From NCBI RefSeq assembly GCF_036172515.1, contig NZ_JAXKVW010000016.1, positions 1 through 61,398 on the forward strand: a DNA stretch of 61,398 nucleotides, read 5' to 3'. Within the stretch, counting starts at the first letter, position 1, and each line of letters opens with the position of its first letter. A model generated the notes under the pieces. It made no database searches. It saw only the letters and a program-made list of their open reading frames with translations, and was not told the DNA's origin. Both the position numbers and the translations under genes were made by a program. Of this stretch, positions 3,152 to 33,908 are shown in pieces. Origin of the DNA: Flexistipes sp. (GTDB lineage Bacteria > Chrysiogenota > Deferribacteres > Deferribacterales > Flexistipitaceae).

Positions 3152-3401
3152 CTTATTTCTAAAGTTTCTAACAATTGGCTTTTATCAAAACAGAAATAGA
3201 ATTAGCTAAAGTGCTATTTTAAGTTTTTATTTATGATGAAATAAATATGAAAGAAATAAATGTGTTGAATTGTACAAGTAAACTACAGTGGAAAAATTAT
3301 TTTTGAAAAATCATCAACTTGCAGAGAATATATCCATTCGACTGGAAATCTATTGTCAGTTAAGTTACAATGTAATTGTTATTTTTCTCGGAGGAAATTA
3401 T

Positions 3402-6400: not shown

Positions 6401-7658
6401 TGTCAAGTTGGAGAAAAACCAGTCTTATGATACTGCAGCATTGATACTGAATGCTTTTGGAGGAAACGGAGATGAGATTTTAAATGATAAAACAAGGATG
6501 CGTGCTTTTAAAGATTACAAGGAAAAAGTCGCAGAAGTATTAAACAGTATCAAAAATATCCATGAAATTTATGACAAATTACAAAACAGGTTTGATTCTT
6601 ATATTAATCTTGAAGATGTCAGCAATGAGATAGAATCAATCAACGAAATAAAATGGGAAGAATTCGATCTGGCTAATGTAACTCAATTCTATAAGCTAAA
6701 ATCATATGAGAGAGACATTGCAAAAGTAAAGAATCTGATTAAAAAAATAGAAGATGTCGAAAGCGCACTGAATGAATATTTACAGATAAAACCCGATATC
6801 GAATATGTTCATAAGGCTAACGATTTGATTGAACAGAACAAATTTATTGTTACAAACACACAGAAAAGAAACAAAATAATGGAGTTATATGACAATATCA
6901 TCAGTGAATGCGGTGATTTTGCGTCGTTTATGGACATAGTCACAAGAAATGCTGTTAAAGGTAAAATCGACCAGTTCAAATCTATCTACAAAAAAGATAT
7001 CTACTATCCGGCACATGAGAAATATGTGGGTTCTAAGGTTGACTGGAAATCCCTGAAAGACCTTTTATATAATGAAACTTTCAAAAGATTGAATTTACTC
7101 AGCAGAGTTAAGTTTATCAACGATGTAAAACTTAATCAACTGACCTCAAAAGTCCGGGAGTTGACAGGAGTTGAGTGCAAAAACAAAGGACTTTTTGATG
7201 AACTGGACTCACACATATTTTGTCAGAAATGCTTTTTCCCGAAGGACGATATAAATTACTCATCGATATTATCTGAGATAAATAATATCGGAGATGAATT
7301 TGAGAAACTTTTGGAACAATATGAAAAAAATACGCTAAAGCATATCAGAGAATATAGAGATAATGTGAAATTTCTTGACAAAGACAGTGAAAAACAGCTT
7401 ATCAACGATATCCTAAAAAATGAAAAACTTCCGGATACTTTGGATACTGACACTGTTAACACTATAAATAAATTATTCCGTGAAATCTCAGTAGTGGATA
7501 TAAAAGAAGATGATTTTAAAAATAAGATTTTCCCCGGTGAAGAGATGTTTACTGTGGAAGAAATAGAAGAAAATTTTAATAAATTTTTATCCGATTTACT
7601 GGCAGGAAAAGACAAAGCAAATATTCGTATAAAATTGGAGAGTGGCAATGAAGATTGA
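3402..7658 (+). CDS. brxC: BREX type 3 BrxC ATPase with fused N-terminal BrxF-like domain
   Basis: The 1418-aa product starts at ATG 3402 behind GGAGGAAATT; an upstream GTG at 3288 adds 38 residues but has no ribosome binding site. Residues ~1-185 resemble BrxF: a degenerate P-loop position (AIIGRDKKKQ, ~28-37), then a LILLHG/LDDL strand, a VVMFLDD strand and a YGELGN...Y ending like the YAEPGH tail of BrxF proteins. From ~195 the BrxC part begins, with Walker A GNYGSGKS (252-259), Walker B LVAIDE (~360-365) and a long coiled-coil C-terminal half. BrxC is the large AAA ATPase of BREX defence. No separate brxF gene precedes it, supporting a fusion. It overlaps pglXI by 11 bases. Confidence 0.85.
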   Translation: MAKNQKEKLKDLNSLIYQTQNITYHLLAIIGRDKKKQDKIINYLTDKGWQVVDIEAEFSKLKKEYENEIKNEVDMRSKLKEWFMKMPDKLILLHGSILYLDDLTKISPIEAFKYNTRGKNSVVMFLDDEQKLGNRLYYGELGNENHYDKEIRDINLVPIEEISDDFEKHEDTIRTPDKNLEYDVEDLPDDAIGRYFNFKTIKDVVDIDTLKTKDRKKQVVSSYIFSDKLEEQVSEFFDDLVKPVHKARNIIGNYGSGKSHLVAMLTSIVENPELSEFVNNNKIKEQLKTYDRKFYTVYFELQSGPVELRRWFFDKCKSQLAEKYDIHIKEFDFEKDYDDKKNIEYVIEKIKEKDSAAGLLVAIDEISDFLSMKNKEPMKQDLQFLRVVGQVAQENDIMFVGSMQEDIFSSSMFKEAASEISRVRERFQNIIIVKEDVEKVISERIVSKTNEQKHHLEEKFKPFLKKIEDVGNNLNSYIDLFPLTPTLIEMFNSLPFFEKRGVIQFAVSEIKKSLDKPFPFLLTFEKIYDIISIDPNKKNLQEVSDYIRVSSILFDKIKSTVDRKYQEDAIKIIKGLVVLSLRDTNEGTTAKELANKLMLLPHMESLSSEDYVSLIIKKIREASDGQYLKMRDDKSTGYKYITLDTKLGIDPDEKIQQRIDSVSDDEMEQELFRQLERLLELDIHRYKNIPDVFEDECEWKSKKSFRKGYILFNKKENILTQNLGKRDYEIVFTSPYCDENVSPVGDNQLQIKISIKSGDNVHILRKIAAIRQLYNLNFQKTIMGKKLDEEINGHRKDGIIHTGFAHRLSKIIVNYGSFILNDENINISHYLTTKDAGLYETLEEIKTNLFDPLFNSKYPLHPKYPSNFSSLNIVKTLDNHLNELQKGNFNKLQQNTVQFLSSLKLLDENKYPSISESPVAEFIINTIKDKSEQAVKIDDDIARPLSEGEYGLEKEVVYFILSLTTILGKTILQAKGGISINIDNIQGKLGSLSTFENILYVKLEKNQSYDTAALILNAFGGNGDEILNDKTRMRAFKDYKEKVAEVLNSIKNIHEIYDKLQNRFDSYINLEDVSNEIESINEIKWEEFDLANVTQFYKLKSYERDIAKVKNLIKKIEDVESALNEYLQIKPDIEYVHKANDLIEQNKFIVTNTQKRNKIMELYDNIISECGDFASFMDIVTRNAVKGKIDQFKSIYKKDIYYPAHEKYVGSKVDWKSLKDLLYNETFKRLNLLSRVKFINDVKLNQLTSKVRELTGVECKNKGLFDELDSHIFCQKCFFPKDDINYSSILSEINNIGDEFEKLLEQYEKNTLKHIREYRDNVKFLDKDSEKQLINDILKNEKLPDTLDTDTVNTINKLFREISVVDIKEDDFKNKIFPGEEMFTVEEIEENFNKFLSDLLAGKDKANIRIKLESGNED

Positions 7659-10140: not shown

Positions 10141-10162
10141 TTTTGTAAAAAAGGCATTTTGA

Positions 10163-13030: not shown

Positions 13031-14476
13031 GTGAAGTTTATAGATCAATATATACAAAAGCTTGATCTGGATAAACCTTATAAAAAGGTCATTGTTGACC
13101 GTTTTTATTTTATACATGATGATGATATTCAAGATTTTCTCGGCATAAACAATATCGATTATGAAATTGCAGACACTTATGATGATATAGTCCTTTTATC
13201 CAAAGAAAATCCTAATGTATTTTTAAGATCTGAAAACCTGTTAAAGAATGAGACAGTTCAATTAATTTCTAAAAGATTTAATGTAAACTTTTATAATGAA
13301 AACAGCCTGCCTTTTGTTATAGAGAACAGCCTTTTAAATACTCGGTCTTTGGAAAACATAAGAAAGGTTATCAAATACAACTTTTATAAAAAAATCGAGT
13401 ATAGTTTTATTAATAAAGGTAATTTCGATTTAATATTAAAAGAAAGCAGGAAGTCCGATCTCCTTTATGAGAAAAATCAGCTGTCCGGCAGAATACGAAG
13501 GTTATCGTCTAATTTAAGTAATTACGATGACATTATAAAAGTCGGAGAAATGTACGGTAAGCTTAACTATTTATCGTATATTTTGGATTCAGATATTGAC
13601 AGAGAGTTAGTTGCAGAAATGGATGAGGGTGTCAAAAATTTTATACTTCAAGGGGGTATAAAAGATGCTTTTTATTCGTCTGTAAATAACCTTAAAACAG
13701 TAAATAAAATTACCGGCTACATAGATAAGAATCAACCTGAAAAATTTGCATTAATCTGTTTTGACGGGATGGGTGTTTCTGAATGGGAGTTACTGAAAAG
13801 TTTTCTATCACAATATAATATCAGTACAAATGAAAGGTATCTATTTTCTTTGATACCCACAACGACAAAAATTTCCAGAACATCAATTTTTTCCGGTCAA
13901 TATGAAGCTGTCTATGGAAATAAAAAAATTGATGAAAACAGAGAATTTGAACGGCAATTCCCAGAACTATCTACAAAGTCATTTTCGGAAGGTGAAATAA
14001 AATCTGGAGATGACTTAATCGGAATAGAGGGCGTAAAATTAATATATAACGTTTTTGATGAATGTGCCCATGGTGCAGTTATTAATCCAAATAACAAAAG
14101 CAAAACCGGTTTTTTCAAAATGGCAGAAGACTACCTTTTAAACTCCACTATTTTTAAAGAGATAAACATATTGAAAGCATGTGGTTATATAATTTACATC
14201 TGTTCTGATCATGGAACTGTTGTGGCTGAGGGTAATGGAGATAAAGTAGAGAAGTATTTGATAGAAGAAAGCTGTAAAAGAGGTGTTATTGTTTCTGAAA
14301 CAAGTTTACTGAAAAACTATGATTTGGATAAATACGATATACCTTTTATAAAAGGAAAATATGCATTATTGTCCACAAACAGACATTCCTTTTCATATAA
14401 GGGAAAACTTGATATAACTCACGGCGGAATAACGGTGGAAGAATTAATTGTTCCTTTTGCGGAGGTTGAGAATTGA
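13031..14476 (+). CDS. pglZ: BREX protein PglZ (alkaline phosphatase superfamily)
   Basis: The 481-aa product starts at GTG 13031, directly after the brxHII stop, with GGAG ten bases upstream. The C-terminal half is the PglZ domain: FDGMG with D245, an ISRTSIFSGQ segment, CSDHG (D393-H394) and THGG (H464) followed by EELIVPF. These are the metal-ligand positions of the alkaline phosphatase fold. PglZ is the marker protein of all BREX systems. At ~480 aa it is shorter than the ~800-aa PglZ of type 1, as is common in type 3. Its stop overlaps the TTG start of brxA. Confidence 0.92.
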   Translation: MKFIDQYIQKLDLDKPYKKVIVDRFYFIHDDDIQDFLGINNIDYEIADTYDDIVLLSKENPNVFLRSENLLKNETVQLISKRFNVNFYNENSLPFVIENSLLNTRSLENIRKVIKYNFYKKIEYSFINKGNFDLILKESRKSDLLYEKNQLSGRIRRLSSNLSNYDDIIKVGEMYGKLNYLSYILDSDIDRELVAEMDEGVKNFILQGGIKDAFYSSVNNLKTVNKITGYIDKNQPEKFALICFDGMGVSEWELLKSFLSQYNISTNERYLFSLIPTTTKISRTSIFSGQYEAVYGNKKIDENREFERQFPELSTKSFSEGEIKSGDDLIGIEGVKLIYNVFDECAHGAVINPNNKSKTGFFKMAEDYLLNSTIFKEINILKACGYIIYICSDHGTVVAEGNGDKVEKYLIEESCKRGVIVSETSLLKNYDLDKYDIPFIKGKYALLSTNRHSFSYKGKLDITHGGITVEELIVPFAEVEN

Positions 14477-15183
14477 TAGGTTTCGACAGACCCATTAAAC
14501 CCGAATGGATATACAATATTTTAAAAGAAATAAAAGTGGGCACCAATCCTACCGAATACAATAAAGTTTTTGAGGATGTTGCGAAGGAATTAACCGGCAA
14601 AGAGGGCAAGAGAAAGGCAAGAACGGTTATTTTCAGAAGCTTTCTTTATTCATTTCAGGAAAAAAGGGCGCCCATTGAGAATAATATTTTCTTAGATTGG
14701 GTGAAGCAATACAGTGAACATAAATTGCGCCCATTGTTCCTTGCGAAGCTGATGATGGATCATGAGGTTTTGAGGTTTATTACCAAAAAGATGCAAATAA
14801 GTTATGATTCTCAAGGGTATTTATCTTCAACGGTGCTAACGAAAAAAATGCAATCCGAACATGGAGACAGAGATGTTGTAAAAAGGTCTGTAAGATCATT
14901 TCTGAAAACACTCTGTCATTTTGGTATAATTGAAGAAATACAGAGGCAGCGGTTTAACCATCTTAACAAAGTCAGGCTTTCAGAAGAACAGACAAAGAAC
15001 TTCCTCCTTTTGTACTCCAAATGCTACCTGAAATCCGAATATCTCGATTTAAATAATGTTGATAGTAATTTGACTTACTTTTTTGAAATGCCGGACTTGT
15101 TAAAAGTCGCTAATATTTATAATAACAAATGCTGGAGTTATATCCGGGATCATACACGTGCAGTTTTGATGATGAAGGGATGA
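14473..15183 (+). CDS. brxA: BREX protein BrxA
   Basis: The 236-aa product starts at TTG 14473, overlapping the pglZ stop by four bases, with GGAGG eight bases upstream. It is a helical, basic protein with a central LTKKMQSEHGDRDVVKRS segment and the position at the end of the operon expected for BrxA in type 3 BREX. BrxA is a DNA-binding winged-helix protein related to the RNA-binding NusB fold. The sequence alone is weakly conserved, so the call leans on gene order and size. No terminator follows within 50 bases. Confidence 0.8.
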   Translation: MIGFDRPIKPEWIYNILKEIKVGTNPTEYNKVFEDVAKELTGKEGKRKARTVIFRSFLYSFQEKRAPIENNIFLDWVKQYSEHKLRPLFLAKLMMDHEVLRFITKKMQISYDSQGYLSSTVLTKKMQSEHGDRDVVKRSVRSFLKTLCHFGIIEEIQRQRFNHLNKVRLSEEQTKNFLLLYSKCYLKSEYLDLNNVDSNLTYFFEMPDLLKVANIYNNKCWSYIRDHTRAVLMMKG

Positions 15184-22328: not shown

Positions 22329-22787
22329 TTGCTTAAAATAGTTTCCGGCGGACAGTCAGGAGTAGATCGGGCAGCTCTTGATTTTGCAATTGAAAATAAT
22401 TTTGAATATGGTGGATATGTCCCAAAAGGCTTCAAATCAGAGGATGGTGGGCTTACAAAAGAAAAATATCGAAATATGATAGAAAGTAAAAGTTCTGATT
22501 ATAAAGTAAGAACTGAAGAAAATGTTATTAACTCTGATGGTACTTTGATTATTTACAAAAACCTATCCGGCGGGACAAAACTGACAGTAAAGTATGCTGA
22601 AAAACATAGAAAGCCTTACCTACTAATCAAAATGTCGGATGATATAAAAGAGAGTGCAAATAATATACGAAAGTTTGTGGACAAAAATAATATTGAAGTA
22701 TTAAATGTTGCTGGCAATAGGGGCTCAAAAGTTCCTGGCATATATGATTATACAAAAATATTGCTGGCAACTTCTTTGACAAAATAA
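22329..22787 (+). CDS. SLOG-fold protein (putative molybdenum-carrier family)
   Basis: The 152-aa product starts at TTG 22329 with GGGAG upstream. GGQSGVDRAALD at residues 7-18 is the nucleotide-binding loop of the family annotated as putative molybdenum carrier (PF12694), part of the LOG/SLOG Rossmann superfamily. SGGTK at ~90 fits the second phosphate loop. SLOG domains bind nucleotides or nucleotide second messengers and are frequent in conflict systems. The molybdenum role is not well founded; a nucleotide-sensing role is equally possible. Confidence 0.75.
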   Translation: MLKIVSGGQSGVDRAALDFAIENNFEYGGYVPKGFKSEDGGLTKEKYRNMIESKSSDYKVRTEENVINSDGTLIIYKNLSGGTKLTVKYAEKHRKPYLLIKMSDDIKESANNIRKFVDKNNIEVLNVAGNRGSKVPGIYDYTKILLATSLTK

Positions 22788-22814
22788 ACTAACATTAAGA
22801 AGTGGGGTCAAAAC

Positions 22815-23450
22815 ATGCGTATTTTTATAGTTACGGTTATTTTTTGTTTGCTATCGCTATCTGTATTTGCCGAGAATATTACGGGTAAAATAGTAGATGT
22901 TGCGGACGGGGACACAGCCACTTTGCTAACATCAAACAATACACAAATCCGTATTAGGCTAAACTGCATTGATGCCCCAGAAAAAAGCCAGGACTTCGGA
23001 CAAAGATCTAAGAGGTCATTAATAGATTTAATTGCAGGAGAATATGTTAGAGTACAAAAACATGACATTGATAGATATGGGCGTACCATTGGAACAATAT
23101 TCTTAAACGGAACTGACATTAACCTGACACAGGTCAAAAAAGGGCTTGCTTGGGTATATGATAGATATTGCAGAGATAGAACATACTATAGGGCAGAAAC
23201 TCTTGCCAGAGAAGGTCATATGGGCTTGTGGAGTCAGCCTAACCCAATAGAACCCTGGAATTACAGAAGAGGTGAACGAAAGCAAGGCAATAATAGTTTT
23301 TCTGATGACGGTACTTTCGAATGTGGTAAAAAGAGATATTGCAGTCAAATGAATTCATGCGAAGAAGTAATGTTTTATTTCAACAAATGTGGCTTAACAA
23401 GGTTAGACGGCAACAGTGACGGTGAACCTTGTGAAAGTATTTGCAGGTAA
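22815..23450 (+). CDS. Secreted thermonuclease (SNase) with Excalibur domain
   Basis: The 211-aa product begins with a signal peptide (MRIFIVTVIFCLLSLSVFA). Residues ~22-150 form a staphylococcal-nuclease domain with DGDT, IRLNCIDAPE and DRYGRTIG. The C-terminal ~45 residues (FECGKKRYCSQMNSCEEVMF, then DGNSDGEPCESIC) are an Excalibur calcium-binding module. It would be exported and degrade nucleic acid outside the cytoplasm. It is the fourth gene of the compact run starting at 20752; the following frame begins shortly after its stop. Confidence 0.88.
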   Translation: MRIFIVTVIFCLLSLSVFAENITGKIVDVADGDTATLLTSNNTQIRIRLNCIDAPEKSQDFGQRSKRSLIDLIAGEYVRVQKHDIDRYGRTIGTIFLNGTDINLTQVKKGLAWVYDRYCRDRTYYRAETLAREGHMGLWSQPNPIEPWNYRRGERKQGNNSFSDDGTFECGKKRYCSQMNSCEEVMFYFNKCGLTRLDGNSDGEPCESICR

Positions 23451-23479
23451 GTATAAGTTTTCAAATAGGACAAATTACA

Positions 23480-24594
23480 ATGACTGATTTAAAAGACATT
23501 AAGCCTAAATGGGTGTTAGTCAATGAAAACCTTTATGAAATATCAAAGTTTTCTCATCTGCCGCCCCAAAAGCGTCCTCATGCAATTTGTCCAGTTTGCA
23601 GACGACCAGTAATTTTAAAATTAGGTGAATATAATGCTCATCATTATGCTCATAGCTCCGAAGATATTTGTACAACAGCCATCCTGAAACAGCATTGCAC
23701 CTGAATGTAAAGTTTCACATTTACCATCAATTATTAAAAGCTCAAAAAATCTATATAGAAAAAAGATGTGACGGTTTCTGCAATGAAAGACCAAAACAAT
23801 TATTTTTAGAAGGGTGGGATGAAGTAAAAATTGAGTACCAAATAGGTTCTATCCGACCAGATATATCTTTGTTCAAAGAAAACAGTCTAATATGCGCAAT
23901 TGAGGTACTTGTGTCTCACGAAATGTCCAAAGAAAAGAAACAATACTTAATTAATCAGGAAATTCCCTGGATTGAAATTAAAGCAGAAGAAAACTTATAC
24001 ATCGGTAATGATACTTGGAATGATGAAAAGCCATTGCCTTTTTATAACTGTTACCCTGAACCTGAACATCGGATATGCGATAACTGTAAAAAATTAAGAT
24101 ATCAAAACGACGAGAATAGTAAAGAAATAGATAAAAAGGTTGAGCATAAGAAATATAATTGTACAAAAATACATGCTGCAAAAATGGTGGATTATTATTT
24201 TCCTTCAGGGAAAAAGTATAGAGAAGTATATTTTGTGAAGAAAAAACTCAGAAGGGGGGATTGGGTAAAAGTATGGATAGAAACAGAACGGAACAGAATA
24301 CTTGCAACAGAATATTCACCTATTACAAAAGATTCTATGAAAAAGCTTAGTAAAACTTTAGAAAAGAATATTAACAGTTTCAGAAGCAAAGGAGCAATAG
24401 TTGATAATTCTATGAAGTGGAGACTTTGGGAAAATGGCTCAAAGTTTGTTGCTCGTGATATAGATAGATTTCCTTTTCGTTATGGATGGGATTCTGAGCG
24501 AAAGGTTTGGGTAAAAAAGAGCGAAAGAACAAACAATTATTACATAGAAAAAAACGGTATAAAGTATTATGGTATTAATACAAGTAAACTATGA
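23480..24594 (+). pseudogene. CoiA-like nuclease gene with a frameshift
   Basis: ATG 23480 follows AGGA. The first frame encodes an N-terminal zinc ribbon (CPVCRRPV…HHYAH) and stops at 23704. The second frame, open from before 23668 to 24594, continues with PETALHLNVKFHIYHQLL, a PD-(D/E)XK-like RPDISLF…CAIEVLVSH core and a basic C-terminus. Zinc ribbon, HxxK-type helix and nuclease core in that order are the layout of CoiA-like proteins. One base is out of register near 23680-23686 (CAACAGCCATCCTG). This is either a real inactivating frameshift or a sequencing error; the intact tail argues it is recent. Confidence 0.65.
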
Positions 24595-24690
24595 GTTTAT
24601 TTAATAAGGAAATTGGCTTCTATAATAGTGGTTTAATTAACTATACTATATAGTGCCAATTATGGATAGAAAGTATTTATAGGTGACTAT

Positions 24691-25149
24691 ATGTGCGGAG
24701 GCATGGCTTTTTATGGTAAAAACAGTGAATTATTTAAAGTTTATTTCCCACAGCCTTATCCAAAAATAGAAGTTTTTACAAAAGACAATTCTAAGATTCA
24801 ATGCATCTGGGGCAGAAGAAGCGAGAAAGAATTTGAAGGCTCAGAAATACCTATAACCGGCTGGGCGAGAATCGAAGCTATAAAAGCCGGAAAATGGCAC
24901 AAATATAATCCTGAAAAAGTCTATATTTTACCGGAAAAATACATGGAAAAAGATAAATATGAAAAATCCCATTGGTTTGAGCCGCCGCCAGATAAGACAT
25001 TAGTAGGCTTATTAGTTGAGGCTAAAAAGCATCAAAAAGTTGTATATGTAGTAACCGTTCCTGCTCCTAAAAAGTACACACATATACATCACAGGTGGCC
25101 GATGTTGACTAAAACTTTTTTTCAGGATGTTATTTTTGAAGGTTGGTAG
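24691..25149 (+). CDS. Compact SRAP (YedK/HMCES-like) protein
   Basis: The 152-aa product starts MCGG, placing the catalytic Cys2 of SRAP proteins at the mature N-terminus. H133 in HIHHRWPML matches the IHDRRP active-site histidine of YedK, and E97 in HWFE fits the conserved glutamate. SRAP proteins crosslink to abasic sites in single-stranded DNA and protect them. Two oddities: the protein is ~70 residues shorter than YedK, and the usual N-A-R motif reads W-A-R (58-60). A ribosome binding site AGGTG precedes ATG 24691. Confidence 0.7.
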   Translation: MCGGMAFYGKNSELFKVYFPQPYPKIEVFTKDNSKIQCIWGRRSEKEFEGSEIPITGWARIEAIKAGKWHKYNPEKVYILPEKYMEKDKYEKSHWFEPPPDKTLVGLLVEAKKHQKVVYVVTVPAPKKYTHIHHRWPMLTKTFFQDVIFEGW

Positions 25150-25197
25150 CCTTGGCAAGAGGGCGGTTTTATCCACCCTCTCTGGAGATGCCAAGGC
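25149..25197. other. Long imperfect hairpin after the SRAP gene
   Basis: GCCTTGGCA (25149-25157) pairs with TGCCAAGGC (25189-25197), and AGAGGG pairs with CCCTCT inside, with a 7-base bulge on the 3' side. No T-run follows, so it is not a standard terminator. The bulged stem resembles attC geometry, but the TAAC/GTTA boxes are missing. Confidence 0.5.
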
Positions 25198-25201
25198 ACA
25201 A

Positions 25202-25305
25202 GCCACAATAGGCTACAGAGAATTATTTATAACTTATGGAAGGTTTGATTTCAAGAAAAAATCGGATAATTATCTTTTTGAAACATACTAAAAAACTATA
25301 GGCTC
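25202..25305. repeat. Direct-strand copy of the 15517-15622 block
   Basis: This block is the reverse complement of 15517-15622 apart from scattered mismatches. It can be read TIGYRELFITYGRFDFKKKS then DNYLFETY-stop, the end of an otherwise missing gene. The remaining bases up to the Pc-like promoter at 25377 are AT-rich and unrecognised. Confidence 0.75.
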
Positions 25306-25376
25306 GGAAAACAAGTTAAAAAAAACAGGCCTATATCAAATTTATCTATTATTTGATTAAACGTTTAACATTTGAT

Positions 25377-25445
25377 TTGACCCAATTCCATTGCCAAGCT
25401 ATCATAAAATAATGAAAGATATACAGAACTATATAATAACTTGTT
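25377..25445 (+). promoter_or_regulatory. Integron Pc promoter and attI-like site, copy 1
   Basis: TTGACC (25377-25382), a 17-base spacer and TATCAT (25400-25405) form a good promoter directed at the cassette genes. The block from TTGCCAAGCTAT to TAATAACTTGTT matches 28117-28172 closely. Just after it, the recombination core G-TTATGC (25443-25449) starts the first cassette. Unlike the second copy, no integrase sequence lies upstream here. This could be a duplicated integron platform. Confidence 0.65.
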
Positions 25446-26066
25446 ATGCCCAAAGAACGTGAGATGAAGACCTTCACTACCGTTGCACAACTGGCTGAGG
25501 AAATTTCGAAGCGTCGGCAAGAAGGCGACGTCAATGTCATTGGTATAGACGGTAAGGATGGGTCCGGTAAGTCCTGGCTCGCGGCCGCCCTGGCAGAAAC
25601 TCAAGCCGCGGACGTAATCAGTCTCGATGACTATTTAGAGCGAAATCAAGGCGGATACACGCGATATCTGGATATTACGGCAATAAACCAGAAACTTTCA
25701 CGTACGGGCCGGCCCGTAATTCTTGAAGGCGTATGCTTGTTGGCTGCGGCGGAACTAATTGGCATTGATATAGACATCCGTATCTACGTAAAGCGTATGA
25801 GCCCTTATGGAACGTGGCGCGATGAAGAAGAATGCGATCCAGCGTTGCCGCCTGAGGAGCTGATTGCCGAACGCAATAAAGAGCTCGAGGAATTTGCCAA
25901 ATTCGAGGCCATTTTGGACTATGAAAATGGCGCTGAGAAAGAAGAAACCGCAGATGGTGATTTTAGCCTTCCAAAACTAGAAAAAGAGTTGATCCGTTAC
26001 CATGCCCAGTATCGCCCAGCGAGTAACGCTGATTGCGTTTTCGAACGTAGTGAGGATGAAAGCTAG
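25446..26066 (+). CDS. Cassette gene: P-loop kinase-like protein
   Basis: The 206-aa product has Walker A GKDGSGKS at 36-43 within VIGIDGKDGSGKSWLAAALA, resembling uridine-kinase or AAA-like nucleotide-binding folds, followed by DVISLDDYL and VILEGVCLL strands. Substrate unknown. The first ATG (25446) lies inside the attI x attC junction, so the start codon would be supplied by the recombination point; ATG 25464 (codon 7) is an alternative within the cassette. GC content is clearly higher than in surrounding genes, a sign of transfer. An attC begins right at the stop codon. Confidence 0.75.
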   Translation: MPKEREMKTFTTVAQLAEEISKRRQEGDVNVIGIDGKDGSGKSWLAAALAETQAADVISLDDYLERNQGGYTRYLDITAINQKLSRTGRPVILEGVCLLAAAELIGIDIDIRIYVKRMSPYGTWRDEEECDPALPPEELIAERNKELEEFAKFEAILDYENGAEKEETADGDFSLPKLEKELIRYHAQYRPASNADCVFERSEDES

Positions 26067-26128
26067 GCATAACAACGCGTTCGAGGCCGACGCGCCTCGT
26101 CAAGCGCGGCTCATCGCCAACGTTAGGG
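26067..26128. other. attC site of the kinase cassette
   Basis: GCATAAC (26067-26073) and GTTAGGG (26122-26128) are the outer boxes. The interior folds as CAACGCG…GAGGCCGACGCG against CGCGGCTC…CGCCAACG, closely resembling the aadA-type attC in length (62 bases) and boxes. It follows the cassette ORF immediately, the normal place for attC. Confidence 0.85.
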
Positions 26129-26150
26129 CTCAAGGAAAGGAGAGGCGTTC

Positions 26151-26672
26151 TTGAACGAAAAGGAGGCAATTGAGAAAGCAACGGCGGATGCTTTCATAGA
26201 ATTATACAACCGCGAAATGAGAACATCCTTTTCGATAACCGAATACTCGGATGCTCCAGATATAAGATGCAAGGATCTTAAGGGAAACATATTCAATTTC
26301 GAGATCACCTTGACTGAAGACCGGAAGAAAGACATCGCAGCCTCACTCGGGAGGTCTAATCATAGAAGTTTCGAAGCCCTGAGGAAGCATCTCGATGAGG
26401 TAAAAGCCGGAAAAGCAAATCCATTGGACAGGGTGAGCTGCTTACAGGGGAATGTTACTAAGATGATTGTCGGCAGGATACGAAAAAAGCTGGAAAAGGA
26501 CTACGGCTCTAATGTAGGCCTTGTAATTTGTGACACATCGCCGGTTTGTTGGGATTGGGAGTTGGTTGTTGACGATATCAGGCGGCGCATCCTCTCTTCG
26601 CGAAAGAATCCTTTCGACAAGGGTATATGGATCATGTCCTTCAGGAAAGACAAAATCTACCGAATTATTTAA
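26151..26672 (+). CDS. Cassette gene: putative PD-(D/E)XK-fold protein
   Basis: TTG 26151 follows AAAGGAGAGG. The 173-aa product carries APDIRCKD followed by NFEITL (D37…E51-I-T53), which fits the core of PD-(D/E)XK nucleases except that the lysine position is threonine. The rest is helical with a C-terminal CWDWELVV strand. I recognise no specific family. It lies between two attC sites (26067-26128 and the truncated 26682 site), so it is the second cassette of this array. Confidence 0.7.
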   Translation: MNEKEAIEKATADAFIELYNREMRTSFSITEYSDAPDIRCKDLKGNIFNFEITLTEDRKKDIAASLGRSNHRSFEALRKHLDEVKAGKANPLDRVSCLQGNVTKMIVGRIRKKLEKDYGSNVGLVICDTSPVCWDWELVVDDIRRRILSSRKNPFDKGIWIMSFRKDKIYRII

Positions 26673-26681
26673 AGAACGAAG

Positions 26682-26700
26682 CCCTAACAACCGGCTGCAC
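26682..26700. other. Left half of a truncated attC site
   Basis: CCCTAACAACCGGCTGCAC directly after the cassette stop is a standard attC left half (YYYAAC, then a GCCGGCTGCAC-type arm). The complementary arm ending in GTTAGGC is absent; instead AATAGGGACAGG follows at 26707, a phrase also seen near other mobile-element junctions here. The array was therefore cut at this point. Confidence 0.6.
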
Positions 26701-26788
26701 GAGGGAAAAATAGGGACAGGTTAATAATACTTTATTGAATATTTTCTCGACAATAAATTATATTACCGCTAAAAGGCAGAAATTCCCT

Positions 26789-26811
26789 GCCTGCCGGCAG
26801 GCTTTTATTTT
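26789..26811 (+). terminator. Perfect palindrome followed by T-rich tract
   Basis: GCCTGCCGGCAGGC (26789-26802) is a perfect 14-base palindrome followed on the plus strand by TTTTATTTT. It could act as a terminator for cassette transcription or be a REP-type element. It has no matching T-run on the minus strand. Confidence 0.45.
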
Positions 26812-26876
26812 AGGTAAGTTACGGAGTGCTGTAGGGTTTGCTTATGCGGCCACCAATCTAAAAATCGCTTATTGCC

Positions 26877-27374
26877 TTATTTGTCAGCACTATCAGTTTT
26901 ATAGTGCAGTTTTCTTTTTTCGACACAAAACTTTTTAATATCCTTTATAATCTGCGACGTCCCTTCGATTAGAATATCTATATCATCTATATCCGGCAAT
27001 GTTTTGATTCCACTTGTTATATATTCAAATTGCTTACTCATATAATATGGATTCACAACTTCTATAGATGTTTCAAATTTTGAAGAAATTTTAACATACT
27101 CAGATAGATTATTATTTCTTGCCTCATCAAGACACTTTTTAAGATCATGTCCCAATACATTTTTTAAGAAATCTAATTCTTTACCACATCCGCGCAGAAA
27201 CGCTTTTAAAGCTAGCTCAATAGAATGACAAATTAAATAGTAGGATGGAACAAAAAGCTTTCCTTTTATGTTTCTTATCAATCTTGCAGATTCATAAAAT
27301 TCATTTGCATATCGCCATAATCCCATTGAGCTTGTTCTGTCAATTATCATTCTCCCCATTTTCATTTTACCCAT
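26877..27374 (-). CDS. HEPN-like protein
   Basis: The 165-aa minus-strand product has YYLICHSIELALKAFLRGCG followed by LGHDLKKCL, a helical pair typical of HEPN-domain proteins, many of which are RNases or toxin components. The usual R-x4-6-H motif is not evident, so catalytic ability is uncertain. Several ATGs lie close together at the start (27374, then internal ones after GGGGAG), so the exact N-terminus is unclear. No MNT-type nucleotidyltransferase partner gene lies next to it. Confidence 0.6.
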   Translation of the reverse strand: MGKMKMGRMIIDRTSSMGLWRYANEFYESARLIRNIKGKLFVPSYYLICHSIELALKAFLRGCGKELDFLKNVLGHDLKKCLDEARNNNLSEYVKISSKFETSIEVVNPYYMSKQFEYITSGIKTLPDIDDIDILIEGTSQIIKDIKKFCVEKRKLHYKTDSADK

Positions 27375-27477
27375 TTTACAAAAATTAGATAGTTAATTTA
27401 CTATCCTATCGCTGTTTTAGCAACTCATTTATCACATCTGTAATCGGCATAGGCGTACTATTGCCATAACTATTGAG

Positions 27478-27545
27478 TATTCCGGGTCAAATTGAGCAAC
27501 CAGTCTGGTAAAGCAGAGCCAGTGTTCCGGTAAAGAGAGCCATTT
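27478..27545. mobile_element. IS21-like terminal repeat remnant, second copy
   Basis: This segment contains, in a different arrangement, the same units seen at 18222-18291: CCGGGTCAAATTGAGC, GGTAAAGCAGAGCCAG and GTTCCGGTAAAGAGAGCCAT. Units repeat within the segment as in IS21 ends. No transposase genes remain. Confidence 0.4.
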
Positions 27546-27729
27546 TCTCACAAAATCCCTTAAAATGTATAATACACATTAGTTAAGAAAGACAGGGACA
27601 CCCATAACAAGTTTTTTGTCAAGTAGATATTCCTCCACTGTTCGCATTCTTTATGCAATCTATTAACAAAACTATAATATTTTGCAGATTCAGCAACTTT
27701 TCTGCACCTGTGTTTTCAATATGTTGTGT

Positions 27730-27949
27730 CAGCATAATGTTTATTGAGTACCGCAAATTTATCGGCTTAAGGAAAGATTTGCCTTCATTGCTTCCGCATC
27801 AGCCGATGCTAGCTGCACCAGACACCCATCAGGATTTAGATATCAGCGACATTAACATTTTACGCATATCACTGATGGACAATCATTACCATTTGCTAGC
27901 TGAAACACCAGAAGGTCAAGTTCTTACAAGAATCCAGATAATATCTTAA
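27730..27949 (+). pseudogene. Fragment of a REP-associated (Y1/IS200-like) transposase
   Basis: The frame includes FIEYRKFIG early on and later LRISLMDNHYHLLAETPEGQ, the HUH-containing signature of REP-associated tyrosine transposases (usual form MPNHYHLLLETPEGN). Internal sequence between these blocks is shortened and the frame ends at 27949, so it is a broken copy. Its 3' end runs directly into the integron integrase remnant on the other strand. Confidence 0.65.
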
Positions 27950-28045
27950 CCACTTCTTATAACTTCCATATTCTAAAGGTGGGACATCGCTATTTACCAA
28001 CAGGCGATCATATTTTTTAAGAAGTGCCGGAGGAACTTTCAACAT
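27921..28045 (-). pseudogene. intI: 5' fragment of an integron integrase gene (intI)
   Basis: From ATG 28045 on the minus strand the frame reads MLKVPPALLKKYDRLLVNSD then VPPLEYGSYKKWLRYYLDSC. This is the N-terminal core-binding pattern of integron integrases (P..LL..Y...L....VP......Y..WLR.YLDFC.KY). Only ~40 codons remain; the catalytic part is lost where the REP-associated transposase fragment begins. Its position and divergent orientation next to an attI/Pc block and cassettes is exactly that of intI. Confidence 0.72.
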
Positions 28046-28102
28046 AGCTTCAATACACTCAAAATATTAAAATGATCATGTTATCCAATTAAATATCTTT
28101 AC

Positions 28103-28172
28103 TTGACTTCGAATTAATTGCCAAGCTATACTGCACTTATGAGAGACATACAGAACTGTATAATAACTTGTT
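28103..28172 (+). promoter_or_regulatory. Integron Pc promoter and attI-like site, copy 2
   Basis: TTGACT (28103-28108), an 18-base spacer and TATACT (28127-28132) form the promoter. The block continues to TAATAACTTGTT (ending 28172), where a G-TT core at 28170 marks the cassette junction. It lies 58 bases from the start of the intI remnant, and the intI and cassette genes diverge from it, as in known integrons. Confidence 0.72.
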
Positions 28173-28325
28173 GTACCGGTCGCTTTGCGCCCGGTACAAT
28201 TCGTTGCGTATACATCCGCTTCTTGTTCGGCACAAAGCGCCTCACAACAAGCGGATTCAGCAGACAATCCCTTCGGCAAGCAAGCTTGCCTCGGTCTTGC
28301 TCCTGATCCTGATCCGCAACGAATT
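28171..28325. repeat. Nested inverted repeats between attI and the first cassette gene
   Basis: Three stems are stacked: TTGTACCGG (28171-28179) with CCGGTACAA (28191-28199); an outer AATTCGTTGCG (28198-28208) with CGCAACGAATT (28315-28325); and inside it CCGCTTCTTGT (28216-28226) with ACAACAAGCGG (28244-28254). The segment is GC-rich relative to its flanks. It may be a relic of one or more gene-less cassettes with attC-type folds. Confidence 0.7.
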
Positions 28326-28366
28326 AGGGTTGCAGATATAATAATGAGGCATCTTCAGAGGTGAGA

Positions 28367-30754
28367 ATGCCAATAGGCACAATTGACATAAGATTACGGC
28401 CTATAAAACTGGCCTTCCTCTTATCCCCTTCAGACAAACCTTCCCTATTAAAGGCTGTTCAAATCAATTCTTGCCTTTGGGGTGGGGTATTCAATCCTAT
28501 CATTCCTTTTTATCGGCGTACCCCTAAAATTTGGGGGGATAAATTCACAAGAAATGTGACCGGGAAGAATATTGTTGAAGGGTATATTAAAGCTTTCGAC
28601 CCAGACTTCATCGTTCCGATTGGAGATATTAAAATTGATGACCACCAATTTTCAGAAGAGAAAATCATTAACCCAGATGAAATAATATCTGGCTTTAGAG
28701 ATGATGGAACCCCTCGTTATGGTATCGGTGTATTTGAACTACTAAAGCATATGTATAGAAAAGAGATAAAATTCGTAAGAAAAGAACCATTACAGATTTT
28801 ATTTCCAACAATCAGTTCAAAATTTAAAATGTTTCTATCTAGTTTTTTTGGGGAGTTACCCAAAAGCATTGATAATGTTGTAAATGAAAATTTTGATAAA
28901 ATATTAGGCATTGAGCGCCCACCAGTAACAATTCAAGATTATACAAATAATTTTTCGAGTAGAAAGCTGTTCCCAAGACGCTTAACTATGCTGGAAATTA
29001 ATCCATTAAGAATCCACTCTCATAGGGATGGCCAATGTATTTTTCTCATGGATGCTAGCAATTCACTCGACATCATTGATTACTGGAATCTTAGGGCAAG
29101 CGGTTGGAATGTCATTCCAATAGCCAAGCAAATATGCACCTTGGATTCAGTAAAAACCATCGCCTTGGAGTTTATAGAAGATAATTTCATTCTTTATCGT
29201 CACAATCCAAATATGTTCCATGGAACAACCATATTAAAAAGCAGAAGCATCCCTGAAACTGCGTTTGAAGATTTCACAGCATCGTTAAAAATTCCGAAAC
29301 CTGAAAGCCCAGAAAAATTCAAATATTCAAAGCAACATTGGTATCCTCGCATGTGGGATAATTTGGCAAGAGAACATGACGGGGTTGGAGCTTGTAAGCT
29401 TGAAGTTAAAGAAGAACAACATGATCTACAACCCATACCTGACCATATTTCCCTAAGAACAATTGATCCAGACTTTGTAAGTCGATTTGGAGGCCATGGA
29501 ACACATAGATTTGCCAATGAAGTAGACATCAGAATATATGGTGATGATGGAAAGCCTTATGCAGAAGTAATTCCACACGGCATAGAAGGTATTGCTCATT
29601 CTATCGGAGCAATAGGTTTCAGGGAATGGCGTATTTCTGATAATGGTCTAGTTTATTTATCTGAACACCCCAAATGGAAAATGACTTTTTCTCCTCCATT
29701 AGCTGAGAATGTCATGATTTCATGGTTGAAATCTAAAGGTTGGGAAGTCAGAGTCTCATCACCTGGGTTAATTGCAAACCAGATGTTGAAACAGCTAGGT
29801 GGTAGTTGGGGCATAGTTATCTTGACAAGACCTGGGCTGATTGAGCTCTTGAGCAAAATGAGCGGTGGTAAGCCCCTCCTGAAAAATTCCTTCTGGGGTA
29901 AGATTCAAAAAATATCACAGGAAGATAAATTTACTCCTGATCCAAAAGGGTTGTTGCAACGGTTAACGGAATTGAAAATTTTCCGTCTTGGTTTTGATAT
30001 TCAGTGTCCGGTTTGTCAACAACGTTCGTGGCATAATCTCTCGGAATTTGATTATGAAACAACATGCCCAATTTGCTTAAATGCATCAGACATACCTTCC
30101 CACTCCCCTGATGACATTAAGTGGTCCTATCGTTCTTTTGGGGCATTTAGCCTGCCTAAGCAAGCTTTTGGTGTGTATACGGTTCTCCTTACTTATCATT
30201 TTTTCGCAAGGACTTTAGACGGGGCAACTACTCCCGTAATGAGTTTTGAGGCAAAGAAAAACACTATAGAGATAGAAGCTGATTTAGCGCTATTTTTTCA
30301 ACAATCAAAATTTGGGAAACCCAAAAGGGAACTAATATTTATTGAATGCAAGACATTCAATAGATTCGAGAAAAAAGATGTTGATAGAATGAAAATCATA
30401 TCAAAAGAGTTCCCTGGTGCAGTTATTGTCTTCGCAACTTTAAATCCAACACTAACTCAGAAAGAAAAAAGACTCTTTAGACCGTTAGTTAAGCAAGGTA
30501 GGAAATACTGGAAAGAAGGCAAAACAAACAATCCTGTCTTAATACTTACTTCAACAGAATTGTTTTCTCATATAAGTCTTAATTATTCTTACAAAGAAAA
30601 AGGGGGAGAACATGCCAAGTTTGAGGGTAGGCATTTTGATTTACACCAACTTCGCCCCCTATGTGATATTACCCAACAGTTATATTTAGATATGGAGTCC
30701 TGGTCAGATTGGTTCCATAAAGAAATAGAAAAAAAACAAAAGAAAAGAGTATAA
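28367..30754 (+). CDS. Large cassette-borne protein with zinc ribbon and PD-(D/E)XK nuclease core
   Basis: ATG 28367 follows AGAGG by five bases. The 795-aa product begins GTIDIRLRPIKLAFLLSP and has NSCLWGGVFNPIIPFY, a segment I do not recognise. A zinc ribbon (C547-x2-C550…C567-x2-C570) precedes a nuclease-like core with D639 (IEADLALFF) and E660-C-K662 (IFIECKTF), the PD-(D/E)XK pattern. The gene stands between the integron attI block and an attC, making it a cassette, though nearly 2.5 kb is far above the usual cassette size. A defence nuclease is a reasonable inference; no function is known to me. Confidence 0.75.
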   Translation: MPIGTIDIRLRPIKLAFLLSPSDKPSLLKAVQINSCLWGGVFNPIIPFYRRTPKIWGDKFTRNVTGKNIVEGYIKAFDPDFIVPIGDIKIDDHQFSEEKIINPDEIISGFRDDGTPRYGIGVFELLKHMYRKEIKFVRKEPLQILFPTISSKFKMFLSSFFGELPKSIDNVVNENFDKILGIERPPVTIQDYTNNFSSRKLFPRRLTMLEINPLRIHSHRDGQCIFLMDASNSLDIIDYWNLRASGWNVIPIAKQICTLDSVKTIALEFIEDNFILYRHNPNMFHGTTILKSRSIPETAFEDFTASLKIPKPESPEKFKYSKQHWYPRMWDNLAREHDGVGACKLEVKEEQHDLQPIPDHISLRTIDPDFVSRFGGHGTHRFANEVDIRIYGDDGKPYAEVIPHGIEGIAHSIGAIGFREWRISDNGLVYLSEHPKWKMTFSPPLAENVMISWLKSKGWEVRVSSPGLIANQMLKQLGGSWGIVILTRPGLIELLSKMSGGKPLLKNSFWGKIQKISQEDKFTPDPKGLLQRLTELKIFRLGFDIQCPVCQQRSWHNLSEFDYETTCPICLNASDIPSHSPDDIKWSYRSFGAFSLPKQAFGVYTVLLTYHFFARTLDGATTPVMSFEAKKNTIEIEADLALFFQQSKFGKPKRELIFIECKTFNRFEKKDVDRMKIISKEFPGAVIVFATLNPTLTQKEKRLFRPLVKQGRKYWKEGKTNNPVLILTSTELFSHISLNYSYKEKGGEHAKFEGRHFDLHQLRPLCDITQQLYLDMESWSDWFHKEIEKKQKKRV

Positions 30755-30758
30755 AAAA

Positions 30759-30854
30759 CCCTAACAAGGCAAATGCATTCGGACGGCAAAAAGCGCCGCT
30801 CCTCGTTCCTCGTTGCTCTGTTTTTTGCCGCCGGTGATTTGTGCAGCGTTATGC
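30759..30854. other. attC site of the large nuclease cassette
   Basis: CCCTAAC (30759-30765) and GTTATGC (30848-30854) are the outer boxes. The arms pair as AAATGCA with the TTTGTGCA side and, perfectly, CGGCAAAAA with TTTTTGCCG. The terminal loop is about 30 bases. It starts four bases after the ORF stop, as expected for a cassette. Confidence 0.82.
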
Positions 30855-30872
30855 ATAAAAAGGGGTAAATAA

Positions 30873-31354
30873 ATGGCTAATCTAAATGACCTGCGAGCAA
30901 AAATCGAGGAATATAAAAGAAATATCGAAAGGAAGGGCTTCCTCCAATTCAAGAAAGCGAAGTCTATCGTTTAAGCAAGGATATTGTTATTAGCGGCGAG
31001 GATCCTGGTATTTGTTGGCCAGACACTTGGCCACTTACAGATAGCCGGGGTATTTACGCTATTTTTGGCCATGAAAAGTTACTGTATATTGGTAGAGCTT
31101 CCCAACAGTCGATTGGTTATCGATAGGGCAGCTATTTTAGATATGGTGAAGATAGAAGCTGCATTACAACCCTTGGGCATAATTGGAGCACTCCTCCTAC
31201 TCATTTAAAGGTCTGGGCGGTTCCCGAAGAAACATTTTTTGAGGCTAGTGCGCTGGAAGAATTTCTTATCAGGGAGTTGTCCGGCGAACTCCCAGATAAT
31301 ACAGCAGGGAAAATGCATAACAAAGCCTTCAAAAACGGCGCTTCGCCCGTTTAA
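30873..31354 (+). pseudogene. Broken GIY-YIG endonuclease cassette gene
   Basis: ATG 30873 follows AGGGG. The first frame (MANLNDLRAKIEEYKRNIER) is shifted near 30933-30940 into a second frame that reads SRGIYAIFGHEKLLYIGRAS, the GIY-YIG catalytic signature, and then LGHNWSTP and FFEASALEEFLIRELSGELP. A TAG interrupts this frame at about 31123 (GYR-stop-GSYFRYG). The frame runs into the following attC and stops at 31354. So one frameshift and one nonsense codon have inactivated what was a small GIY-YIG domain protein. Confidence 0.72.
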
Positions 31355-31367
31355 GGCAACGTTATAG
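31315..31367. other. attC site of the GIY-YIG cassette
   Basis: GCATAAC (31315-31321) and GTTATAG (31361-31367) enclose near-perfect arms: GCCTT with AAGGC and AAACGG with CCGTTT around a short CGCTTCG loop. At 53 bases it is a compact attC with an unpaired spacer on each arm. It is the last recognisable attC of the array. Confidence 0.85.
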
Positions 31368-32154
31368 AAGATATAAATTTGAACTTAAATATCATTAACG
31401 GTGCTATAAATTACTGGTAGTTTCTACTTGTTATATAAAAAATCATGGAAGTAATATTTAAAATCTGAACTTCATCAGCCAACGATCTGCTTAATATAAT
31501 GATAAACTTCTAGAATAAATGTGTCATAATTGTGTCATTTTTTTGCACTCAAACAAGTAGATAAATAATTTTAAAACTAAGTTCTACAAAACCAAGCAGA
31601 AAAAGAACTGCCTTGTCTTAAATCCATAAAGTTTTATATGCAGAGAGATAAATTTAGTATATTTATGTTACAATAAGAAAATGTAACACATTTGTAACAC
31701 TTTTAGATAAAAATAGGTTATTTTAGATAGTTCGTATTTTTGCATCAACCTAATATTATTAACTATTTATAATCATCTCTCATTAATCTAAAACGGTTCA
31801 ATTCCGGCTGCCAGCTTTTATATGAACAAACACAAATAAGTCAAATAATAGAACGTATGTATAAAATCAAAAAAACATTCAGAAGATTTTAATCAAGCCA
31901 GAATGAGCTGCTCTTGTACGGCTGCGGGCATGATAAACGGGCACATCTTCTTTTGTAATTCAGTGTATACAGTTCTTTGGTACAATGTCCGGTTTGGAGT
32001 TCCTCTTTTCAAAAACACATAAAAGCACGTTGTGCAAAAAAGTCCAAAGCTCCTTTCAGTGAGATGCTCAAATAGGCAGAATAATTTCTACTTGATTAAT
32101 TAATCAGATAAAAAATAGTGTTGCATTATTGTAAAACAATATTATATTATAACA
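31368..32154. other. AT-rich gap without a recognisable gene
   Basis: About 790 bases follow the last attC. Nothing codes convincingly. Minus-strand frames near 31.9-32.05 kb (around TGTACGGCTGCGGGCATG) look like decayed protein sequence but I cannot name a family. Just before the next gene, TTGCAT (about 32122) and an ATTGT-AAA-ACAAT inverted repeat (near 32128-32140) could be a promoter with an operator. Confidence 0.4.
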
Positions 32155-32712
32155 ATGGCTTTGATTAAAATTCCTCTTAAAAAAATCGTATATTTTCTCC
32201 CCTTGGGATATTTGAAGCTAAGGTTGATTGCCAATTACAGGTGGCCTTTTCTTGAGAAAGAACGCAGGGAAAAGATAGTTGATATAGTTATTTTAAGAGA
32301 AATTAATAAGTTCAACCTGACTTCTGTAATTCTGCTCGAACACCCTAAAAATAGAACAGAAAAAATATTCACTGTTCCAACTATCAATGTAATTGAAAAT
32401 ATCGTCATAGAATACGGCAGGCAGGAGAATTTATTTGAGAATATCAGTTCACATCTTGCTATCTTCAGAATGACAGGGTTGGGCATTTTGCAGGGGGATC
32501 TTATGGAAACAGTCAGATCACTGTATTTAAAAAGGGATAAGATATTAAAAAATGGGTTTTTTGGCGATACGTGTGAAAAGAATCTACCCTGTCTTTTCTA
32601 TGAAGCTAACAGAGCACTCCGGGATGTTGAAAAATCACTTTATGAGCATTATAAAATTCACCATACAGAATCCGAATGTTTACCTATCGATTTTCAGGAA
32701 TTTATATTATAA
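32155..32712 (+). CDS. Hypothetical 185-aa protein
   Basis: ATG 32155 begins a complete frame with good coding composition but no Shine-Dalgarno; an AT-rich promoter lies immediately upstream, so the message may have little or no leader. The product is basic at the N-terminus (IKIPLKKIVYFLPLGYLKLR) and soluble, with no recognised domain. It marks the return to core-like sequence after the integron. Confidence 0.5.
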   Translation: MALIKIPLKKIVYFLPLGYLKLRLIANYRWPFLEKERREKIVDIVILREINKFNLTSVILLEHPKNRTEKIFTVPTINVIENIVIEYGRQENLFENISSHLAIFRMTGLGILQGDLMETVRSLYLKRDKILKNGFFGDTCEKNLPCLFYEANRALRDVEKSLYEHYKIHHTESECLPIDFQEFIL

Positions 32713-32752
32713 AACCATAATACTTCTCCCGCTGCGGTGCTTTATATTGTTA

Positions 32753-32905
32753 GCACCCTCCCATTTTTTAGAGCTATGACAATACGCAGATATTGTTAGT
32801 ACATAGATAGAGATCCCTCAGCTTAGCTCGCCCTGTTAAATATCAGCTTCGCTGATTGCCTACGGCATTTAACGGGACGAGGGATGACAGGTTTCTACTT
32901 TTTGT
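32753..32905. repeat. 153-bp dispersed repeat, copy 1
   Basis: This segment recurs in the same orientation at 61128-61280 with a handful of substitutions. Its 3' part contains CTCGCCCTGTTAAAT and ATTTAACGGGACGAG separated by ~25 bases, giving a long stable hairpin. It has no open reading frame and no transposase. It may be a nonautonomous element or a structured noncoding repeat. Confidence 0.85.
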
Positions 32906-32906
32906 A

Positions 32907-32990
32907 ATCTCGACCGGAACGTAGTGGAGCGGAGAGATCTCTACTGTTATATTACAAAGAGACCTCTCGGCTTCGCTCGAGGTGACAATT
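32907..32990. repeat. REP-like palindromes
   Basis: Two units occur in tandem: AATCTCGACCGGAACG…GGAGCGGAGAGATCTC (about 32907-32940) and GAGACCTCTCGG-CTTCG-CTCGAGGTGAC (about 32959-32985). Related units lie at 38794-38880 and a fragment at ~265. Such elements are commonly mobilised by REP-associated transposases, a remnant of which is at 27.8 kb. Confidence 0.65.
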
Positions 32991-33308
32991 ACATGCTTAC
33001 TGTCTATCAGCGATAGCTAAATTAGGATGTTACACATATTTACCAGTCTAAAGGACTGGTGCTAGCCGAAGGCATTCTTTCGAACAAAGTGAGAAATTTC
33101 TACCATATGAAACGACATAACGAATAAATATACAACTGTGCTTAATATTGGGATATCTTCATGAGCGAAAACCCCGATATTAAGATAAAGTATTGTCAAA
33201 TTGCATAAGTACAAAAATTTAGGGAGGTTGCTAATTTATATTGATGTTGACAAACTTCAAATTTTAAGCAATACTAAACAAAGATTAATATCTTCAAACA
33301 GGTGCGAA

Positions 33309-33908
33309 ATGGATGATGTAGATATCAATATCGGCGGAAGAGTAAAAAAACTAAGAAATGACCGAAACCTTACCCTTCAGGATGTTGCAAATTTCACCGG
33401 CTTTTCTAAAGCATTAATTTCTCAGATAGAAAACAATGTGGTAATGCCTCCGATAAGTACATTATCCAAAATTGCAAAAGTGCTCAATGTGAAAATGACT
33501 TATTTTTTTGAAGAAGAAATCGATTACAGTGACTATTATATTGTTCGAAAGAATGAGCGTAAATTTGTTTTTAAAGAAGGGGCAAAGCACGGTTACTTAT
33601 ACGAAGAGCTGGCTCATATAAAAAATAACGATATATTTGAGACCTTTATTGTAACGATAAAGCCCGGTACGAGTGAAAAGAAGCTGTTCAGTCATGAGGG
33701 CTATGAGTTTATGTTTCTTTCTGAGGGGGGTATAAGTCTTTATCTAAATAATGAAAAAATTATCCTTAAAGAAGGGGATTCCATAGCTTTTAACTCAAAA
33801 ATACCCCACTATGCAGAAAGTATTTCAGGAGATTCCTCGAAAATTTTAAGTGTAAGAATGAAGGGGCAGGATATTAAAGAAGTCATAAGAAAAGCAGCTA
33901 AAGCTTAG
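33309..33908 (+). CDS. XRE-cupin transcriptional regulator
   Basis: The product from ATG 33309 (AGGTG upstream) is ~199 aa; an upstream TTG at 33201 would add 36 residues not typical of the family. Residues ~8-62 are an XRE helix-turn-helix (LQDVANFTGFSKALISQIEN) and the C-terminal half is a small cupin barrel with SHEGYEFMFLSEG and LKEGDSIAFNSKIPHYAES. Regulators of this type sense small metabolites via the cupin. A paralogue of the same architecture lies at 35543, with the carbonic-anhydrase-like and kinase-like genes between them. Confidence 0.85.
   Translation: MDDVDINIGGRVKKLRNDRNLTLQDVANFTGFSKALISQIENNVVMPPISTLSKIAKVLNVKMTYFFEEEIDYSDYYIVRKNERKFVFKEGAKHGYLYEELAHIKNNDIFETFIVTIKPGTSEKKLFSHEGYEFMFLSEGGISLYLNNEKIILKEGDSIAFNSKIPHYAESISGDSSKILSVRMKGQDIKEVIRKAAKA

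Follow-up and report, generated by a model that had tools for sequence, protein, structure and literature searches.

We identified a family of proteins that are likely to be self-contained, single-gene defence nucleases carried by mobile elements, represented here by the 795-residue protein P0001 of Flexistipes sp. The gene lies in the window, by which we mean the whole stretch of 61,398 nucleotides that was analysed (contig NZ_JAXKVW010000016.1). The C-terminal half of the protein is a predicted PD-(D/E)XK nuclease, an assignment well supported by the modelled fold and the conservation of the catalytic residues. The N-terminal half, judging from low-confidence models, is probably a Rossmann-like two-lobed module and could be the new part of the family. 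The family is new within a known broad kind, the single-gene PD-(D/E)XK defence nucleases. If the defence reading is true, a one-gene and widely mobile immune nuclease was missed by the defence catalogue searched, and relatives on a Photobacterium plasmid, in a Mu-like prophage and in P2-like prophages are ready for laboratory tests.

The P0001 gene and its product

The open reading frame starts at an ATG and runs to its stop codon without internal stops; the reading-frame listing also gives an alternative upstream start, a GTG at 28361 (Table 1). The Flexistipes genome carries one copy of the gene. In the protein, a zinc ribbon with the spacing C547-x2-C550...C567-x2-C570 is followed downstream by the nuclease set E637-x-D639...E660-x-K662, and the helical connector that precedes the ribbon is presumably winged-helix-like. 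The original prediction, made from the nucleotide sequence, had described the 795-residue frame, the C4 zinc ribbon and a nuclease core of D639 and E660-C661-K662. The frame is intact and all of these residues are present, with the addition of an equally invariant glutamate, E637, two residues before D639.

Table 1. Features of the P0001 gene and its surroundings in the window.
Feature	Position in window	Strand	Description and basis
Family gene P0001, whole coding region	28367..30754	+	two-part protein, 795 aa
Probable N-terminal Rossmann-like two-lobed module	28397..29341	+	residues 11-325; conservation and low-confidence models
Modelled helical connector	29702..29986	+	residues 446-540; model aligned to the pre-nuclease region of Card1/Can2 and FokI
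C4 zinc ribbon	30005..30076	+	residues 547-570; four Cys in 16/16 members
Predicted PD-(D/E)XK nuclease core	30158..30562	+	residues 598-732; E637, D639, E660, K662; model and conservation
Promoter-like TTGACT-18-TATACT	28103..28132	+	10/12 match; overlaps attI-like repeat
attI-like repeat 5' of gene	28117..28177	+	61-nt repeat
attC-like site 3' of gene	30759..30854	+	box sequences, symmetry
BREX locus	3288-15183		BrxF-BrxC fusion, PglX, BrxHI/BrxHII helicase, PglZ, BrxA

Family members and residue conservation

Three full-length relatives were found in species genomes, namely Syntrophaceae, Falkowbacteria and Stahlbacteria MAGs, with 31-34% identity over ~780 residues. Plasmid relatives came from Photobacterium and Bradyrhizobium, one near full length and one diverged, and the remaining members from profile searches and IMG/VR phage contigs. 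The Falkowbacteria MAG (G051) holds two family copies (L003/L012 and L013) that are 33% identical. One profile match (G784), which we take from its sequence to be a PriA helicase, was a false positive matched through its zinc site and was left out.

Conservation was assessed in an alignment of 16 rows (A6) with identity down to ~17%, which leaves out a contig-end fragment (G746) and a broken Sphingomonas plasmid copy annotated as two short genes. All 16 rows keep G162 and the invariant R11-P12, W38-G39-G40, P44 and W240-N241 of the N-terminal module, as well as G467, G542, C547, C550, W555, C567, C570 and G602 further downstream. Within the nuclease core, E637, D639 and E660 are found in 16/16 rows and K662 in 15/16, while position 661 may be C, S, A, V or I, in keeping with its place as the x of the motif. 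The original prediction depended on conservation of the nuclease residues, and this conservation is borne out. The single exception at K662 is L029 (446-2890), in which a valine replaces the catalytic lysine and E637, D639 and E660 are retained; this member is possibly inactive, or another residue may act in place of the lysine. L003 differs from the other rows by an insertion of ~60 residues immediately ahead of the E-x-D motif.

Two full-length subfamilies align throughout (hhalign probability 100%, E 3.6e-47, 717 columns), and two pairs of relatives gave dN/dS values of 0.145 and 0.178, with a third pair giving no dS value. The family is under purifying selection. Taken together, residue conservation, whole-length homology of the subfamilies and dN/dS indicate that the P0001 gene is real and selected.

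Searches of sequence libraries gave no family for the protein. P0001 matched no Pfam or NCBIfam family above cut-off, no PADLOC family at E values up to 10 and no PDB sequence, and none of the PHROGs models covers the family; PDB matches of the family profile were chance zinc-ribbon rows only. The proteins P0001, L005 and L034 had no match in the phage GenBank collection, and further viral-contig scans yielded no new family members. The earlier description of the protein as undescribed holds for the libraries searched (Pfam, NCBIfam, PADLOC, PHROGs and PDB). A literature search found no paper on the family, and we claim nothing wider about print.

Predicted structure

The model of the whole protein, built from seven alignment rows (A4), has a mean pLDDT of 54, with ten-residue blocks at 61-89 from residue 601 onward. 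The modelled core is composed of a helix (598-616), three strands (620-631, 634-646 and 653-662), a helix (669-681), a strand (686-691), a helix (698-716) and a final strand (724-727), and in this helix-strand-strand-strand-helix-strand-helix-strand order D639 and E660/K662 take the positions that they have in PD-(D/E)XK enzymes. In a Foldseek search against the PDB, Cdn1 was the only match with an E value below 0.001 (4e-5). The best VIA-align rows were Cdn1, Card1 and Can2, with Z scores of 8-10 across residues ~448-768. FokI reached a Z of 9.2, within 1 Z unit of the Card1-type rows, and we therefore treat Cdn1, Card1, Can2 and FokI as ties. MspJI and AspBHI took Foldseek ranks 2-5 and 7 with a VIA-align Z of ~7, and nicking BspD6I and EcoT38I were also among the VIA-align rows. 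Of the family members, the divergent L026 alone gave a match to the Pfam NERD nuclease domain, a weak one just under cut-off (E 5.5e-4).

The N-terminal region, unrecognised in the original prediction, was modelled separately for residues 1-447 from eight rows (A8; mean pLDDT 46.7). Two better cores emerged (~12-105 and 222-325, pLDDT mostly ~60-78), each resembling a Rossmann-like half. The lobes are Rossmann-like at low confidence, and comparison of this model by Foldseek and VIA gave no specific match and no structure that reached a Z of 8. The rows for PurN, an AMPA-receptor N-terminal domain, HflX and CcpA were tied and are read as the common Rossmann arrangement only, and the absence of any other family from this list says nothing about it. 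In the viral structure library one match, an uncharacterised Bacillus phage protein, had an E value below 0.001. An origin of the two lobes by internal duplication found no support in a profile comparison (probability 0.4%).

Distribution and genomic neighbourhoods

Matches at E <= 0.001 were present in 1/50 and 1/49 genomes of the window's phylum and in 3/395, 2/286 and 5/147 genomes of other groups, where each group includes the seeding genome and one of the five in the last group is the PriA false match. After removal of these, the carriers numbered 0/48, 2/394, 1/285 and 3/146. L002, L003 and L004 come from three phyla and are 77-84% identical, whereas the two copies in one genome (L003 and L013) share 33%; the high identity and the sparse spread over distant phyla point to horizontal transfer. 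The distribution is that of a transferred accessory gene. That the homologues are housekeeping genes, the other outcome named as adverse in the original prediction, is rejected on these counts.

Defence genes lie near several independent loci (for example L051, L006, L004 and L033), and these contexts strengthen the defence reading of the original prediction. The clearest defence context is the P2-like prophage of L051, in which a replication endonuclease gene is followed by a SIR2_2 and nSTAND_NTPase5 gene, the family gene and the portal gene. The gpA-gpQ interval of E. coli P2-like phages is a hotspot of anti-phage systems according to PMC9122126, and the family gene of L051 occupies that interval. 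The neighbouring 831-residue SIR2_2 and nSTAND_NTPase5 protein (L051 4763-7255) has no PADLOC match, and its gene is a candidate for defence in its own right. In L033, a Mu-like prophage that encodes a transposase and a transposition protein, a fragment of the defence candidate PDC-S31 lies just upstream of the family gene. On the plasmid of L006, IetA/IetS, AbiJ_NTD3/Abi_C and YhaV genes lie upstream, with the family gene directly behind the PrlF/YhaV toxin-antitoxin pair, and in chromosomal L004 the family gene is preceded by type I methylase and specificity genes and followed by AbiEi/AbiEii.

Other members are placed among phage genes: between endolysin and baseplate genes in a P2-like prophage (L034), adjoining terminase and phage-type methylase genes (L027), and, close to the end of a contig, next to genes for phage tail and endolysin (L035). 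Ordinary or unclear neighbours, with no recognised defence system, were seen at L025, L026 and L028, and L002, L003, L013 and L029 come with little flanking sequence or none. Nine weak PADLOC matches in L026 fell on a 101-residue helix-turn-helix neighbour. A 559-residue gene without a Pfam match (L026 6845-8521) lies just downstream of that member on the same strand. A possible partner of the family is a DUF4238 gene, its neighbour both on a plasmid (L005 13404-14207) and in a distant phage-like region (L027 11210-12121). Because a viral collection supplied four of the phage contexts, and a plasmid collection two plasmid contexts, the mobility of these loci partly reflects the choice of collection.

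In the window itself, the BREX locus, whose gene set we take to be BREX type 3, lies 13 kb upstream of the P0001 gene and is not adjacent to it. In the relative G015 (L049), a similar BrxC gene begins ~9 kb from the attI-like repeat. The minus-strand gene at 26880-27374 of the window matches HEPN weakly, with an E value of 0.0019 that falls short of the cut-off.

Cassette setting

The original prediction placed the gene in an integron cassette between attI and attC. An attC-like site and an attI-like repeat do flank the gene and partly support this placement, but no integron integrase over the TIGR02249 cut-off was found in the three genomes of the genus (0/3), which leaves the integron claim incomplete. 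The attC-like site is the most symmetric of nine box-defined candidates in 22501-33500, a region in which a stricter attC pattern found none. Its fold energy is unremarkable (z -1.19; 25/200 shuffles fold as well). On the attI side, promoter-like sites number 2 in the region searched for them vs 1.0 expected. The attI-like repeat recurs at 25390-25450 of the window, at G000:C4:43710-43783 and, in the relative, at G015:C1:1897760-1897848. By eye, the G000:C4 and G015 repeats precede cassette-like genes with attC-like sites, one of these genes being presumably arsenite-methyltransferase-like. An integron setting of the gene is plausible, and the attI-like repeats are possible orphan attI sites used in trans. 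At ~2.4 kb, the gene is far longer than usual cassette genes and, if truly a defence gene in such a setting, would stretch the usual size.

Proposed function and alternatives

The undescribed defence nuclease on a cassette that was originally proposed is partly supported: the family has no match in the libraries searched, the predicted nuclease residues are conserved and defence genes lie near several loci, and no pair of attI and integrase was found. The firm part of our explanation is that P0001 is a defence nuclease, for which we consider the case good. In the mechanism we favour, the N-terminal Rossmann-like module would sense an infection cue, which may be a small ligand, a phage protein or a DNA feature. 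Sensing would then act through the helical connector and zinc ribbon to switch on the nuclease, and the activated nuclease would cut nucleic acid of the invader or of the cell, much as Card1/Can2 do, without a type III CRISPR partner. Gating of the nuclease by a ligand bound to the N-terminus is the weaker part and is offered tentatively. Slightly more tentative is the fullest version of this reading: a new immune-nuclease family in which one gene encodes both the zinc-ribbon PD-(D/E)XK nuclease and the receptor that gates it, a pair of Rossmann-like lobes with no counterpart among described defence sensors. Such a protein might do alone what Card1/Can2 do with CRISPR, and its gene might pass between integrons, plasmids, prophages of the Mu-like and P2-like kinds and the chromosomes of distant phyla. 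If so, the receptor would be a sensor module of a new type, and its trigger could be sought directly.

The main rival to a sensing N-terminus is direct DNA recognition, in which P0001 would be a stand-alone type IV-like restriction enzyme whose N-terminus reads DNA, perhaps modified, and whose nuclease cuts nearby with no ligand switch. The modification-dependent enzymes MspJI and AspBHI, together with FokI, BspD6I and EcoT38I, are among the structural matches given above, the family has no methylase gene linked to it, which would suit a type IV enzyme, and zinc ribbons often bind nucleic acid. However, the N-terminal model looks Rossmann-like and not like a known DNA-reading domain such as an SRA-like one, albeit at low model confidence, and the Card1-type rows rank at or above the restriction enzymes even with FokI so close behind; we regard this rival as unlikely, though the most serious of those weighed. 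That the gene is carried by prophages of the Mu-like and P2-like kinds, by plasmids and by a cassette, and that L006 lies behind a toxin-antitoxin pair, could instead suggest a toxin or a nuclease serving the mobile element, through exclusion of rival elements or processing of its own DNA, and not host defence as such. The family nevertheless occurs on unrelated element types and in accessory positions outside replication or packaging modules, chromosomal L004 lies beside restriction-modification and Abi genes, and, except for DUF4238 at two loci, no antitoxin-like gene recurred beside the family, which makes this explanation improbable.

The least probable of the alternatives, to which we give very little weight, is that P0001 is a true functional relative of Card1/Can2, a second-messenger effector acting in trans for type III CRISPR or CBASS. 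Its best structural rows are indeed Cdn1, Card1 and Can2, and Can2 (7bdv) spans model residues 220-764, but with an rmsd of 19.9. An effector of cyclic nucleotides needs a cyclase, and yet the Cas10-palm cut-off was passed in only 2/9 gene-holding genomes, one of them marginally (28.1 vs 27 bits, in a 477-residue frame), and that of SMODS, the family of CD-NTases searched, in 1/9. The window genome fell below both cut-offs, neither Cas10 nor SMODS was found in G470, where a contig of 699,981 bases makes up about the whole listed size, and none of the loci examined had a recognisable cyclase or Cas gene next to it. The protein therefore probably acts alone, as the favoured reading of a single-gene, sensing defence nuclease proposes.

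Comparison with known systems

Like integron cassettes with defence genes, the P0001 gene has an attI-like repeat on one side and an attC-like site on the other, but differs in its length and in the lack of an integrase over cut-off in the three genomes of its genus. L051 resembles the anti-phage genes found as accessories in the P2 gpA-gpQ hotspot in that it occupies this very interval, beside a SIR2-STAND gene; unlike those genes, the P0001 family is covered by no PADLOC, Pfam or PHROGs model. FokI, BspD6I, MspJI and AspBHI belong to the same nuclease superfamily, with similar Z scores (~7-9), whereas their N-terminal halves differ from the weak model of P0001 and profiles gave no sequence match. 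The nearest in modelled structure, although tied with FokI, are Card1, Can2 and Cdn1, the CARF nucleases of type III CRISPR, with the domain order and activities of Card1/Can2 as given in PMC9704534. Most hosts of the P0001 family, unlike theirs, are without a CRISPR or cyclase partner. In the predicted structure, both kinds of protein would place a C-terminal PD-(D/E)XK nuclease behind a helical connector and an alpha/beta N-terminus, whereas P0001 is about twice as long, has two lobes in place of one demonstrable CARF domain, which in Card1/Can2 binds cyclic oligoadenylate, and carries an added C4 zinc ribbon.
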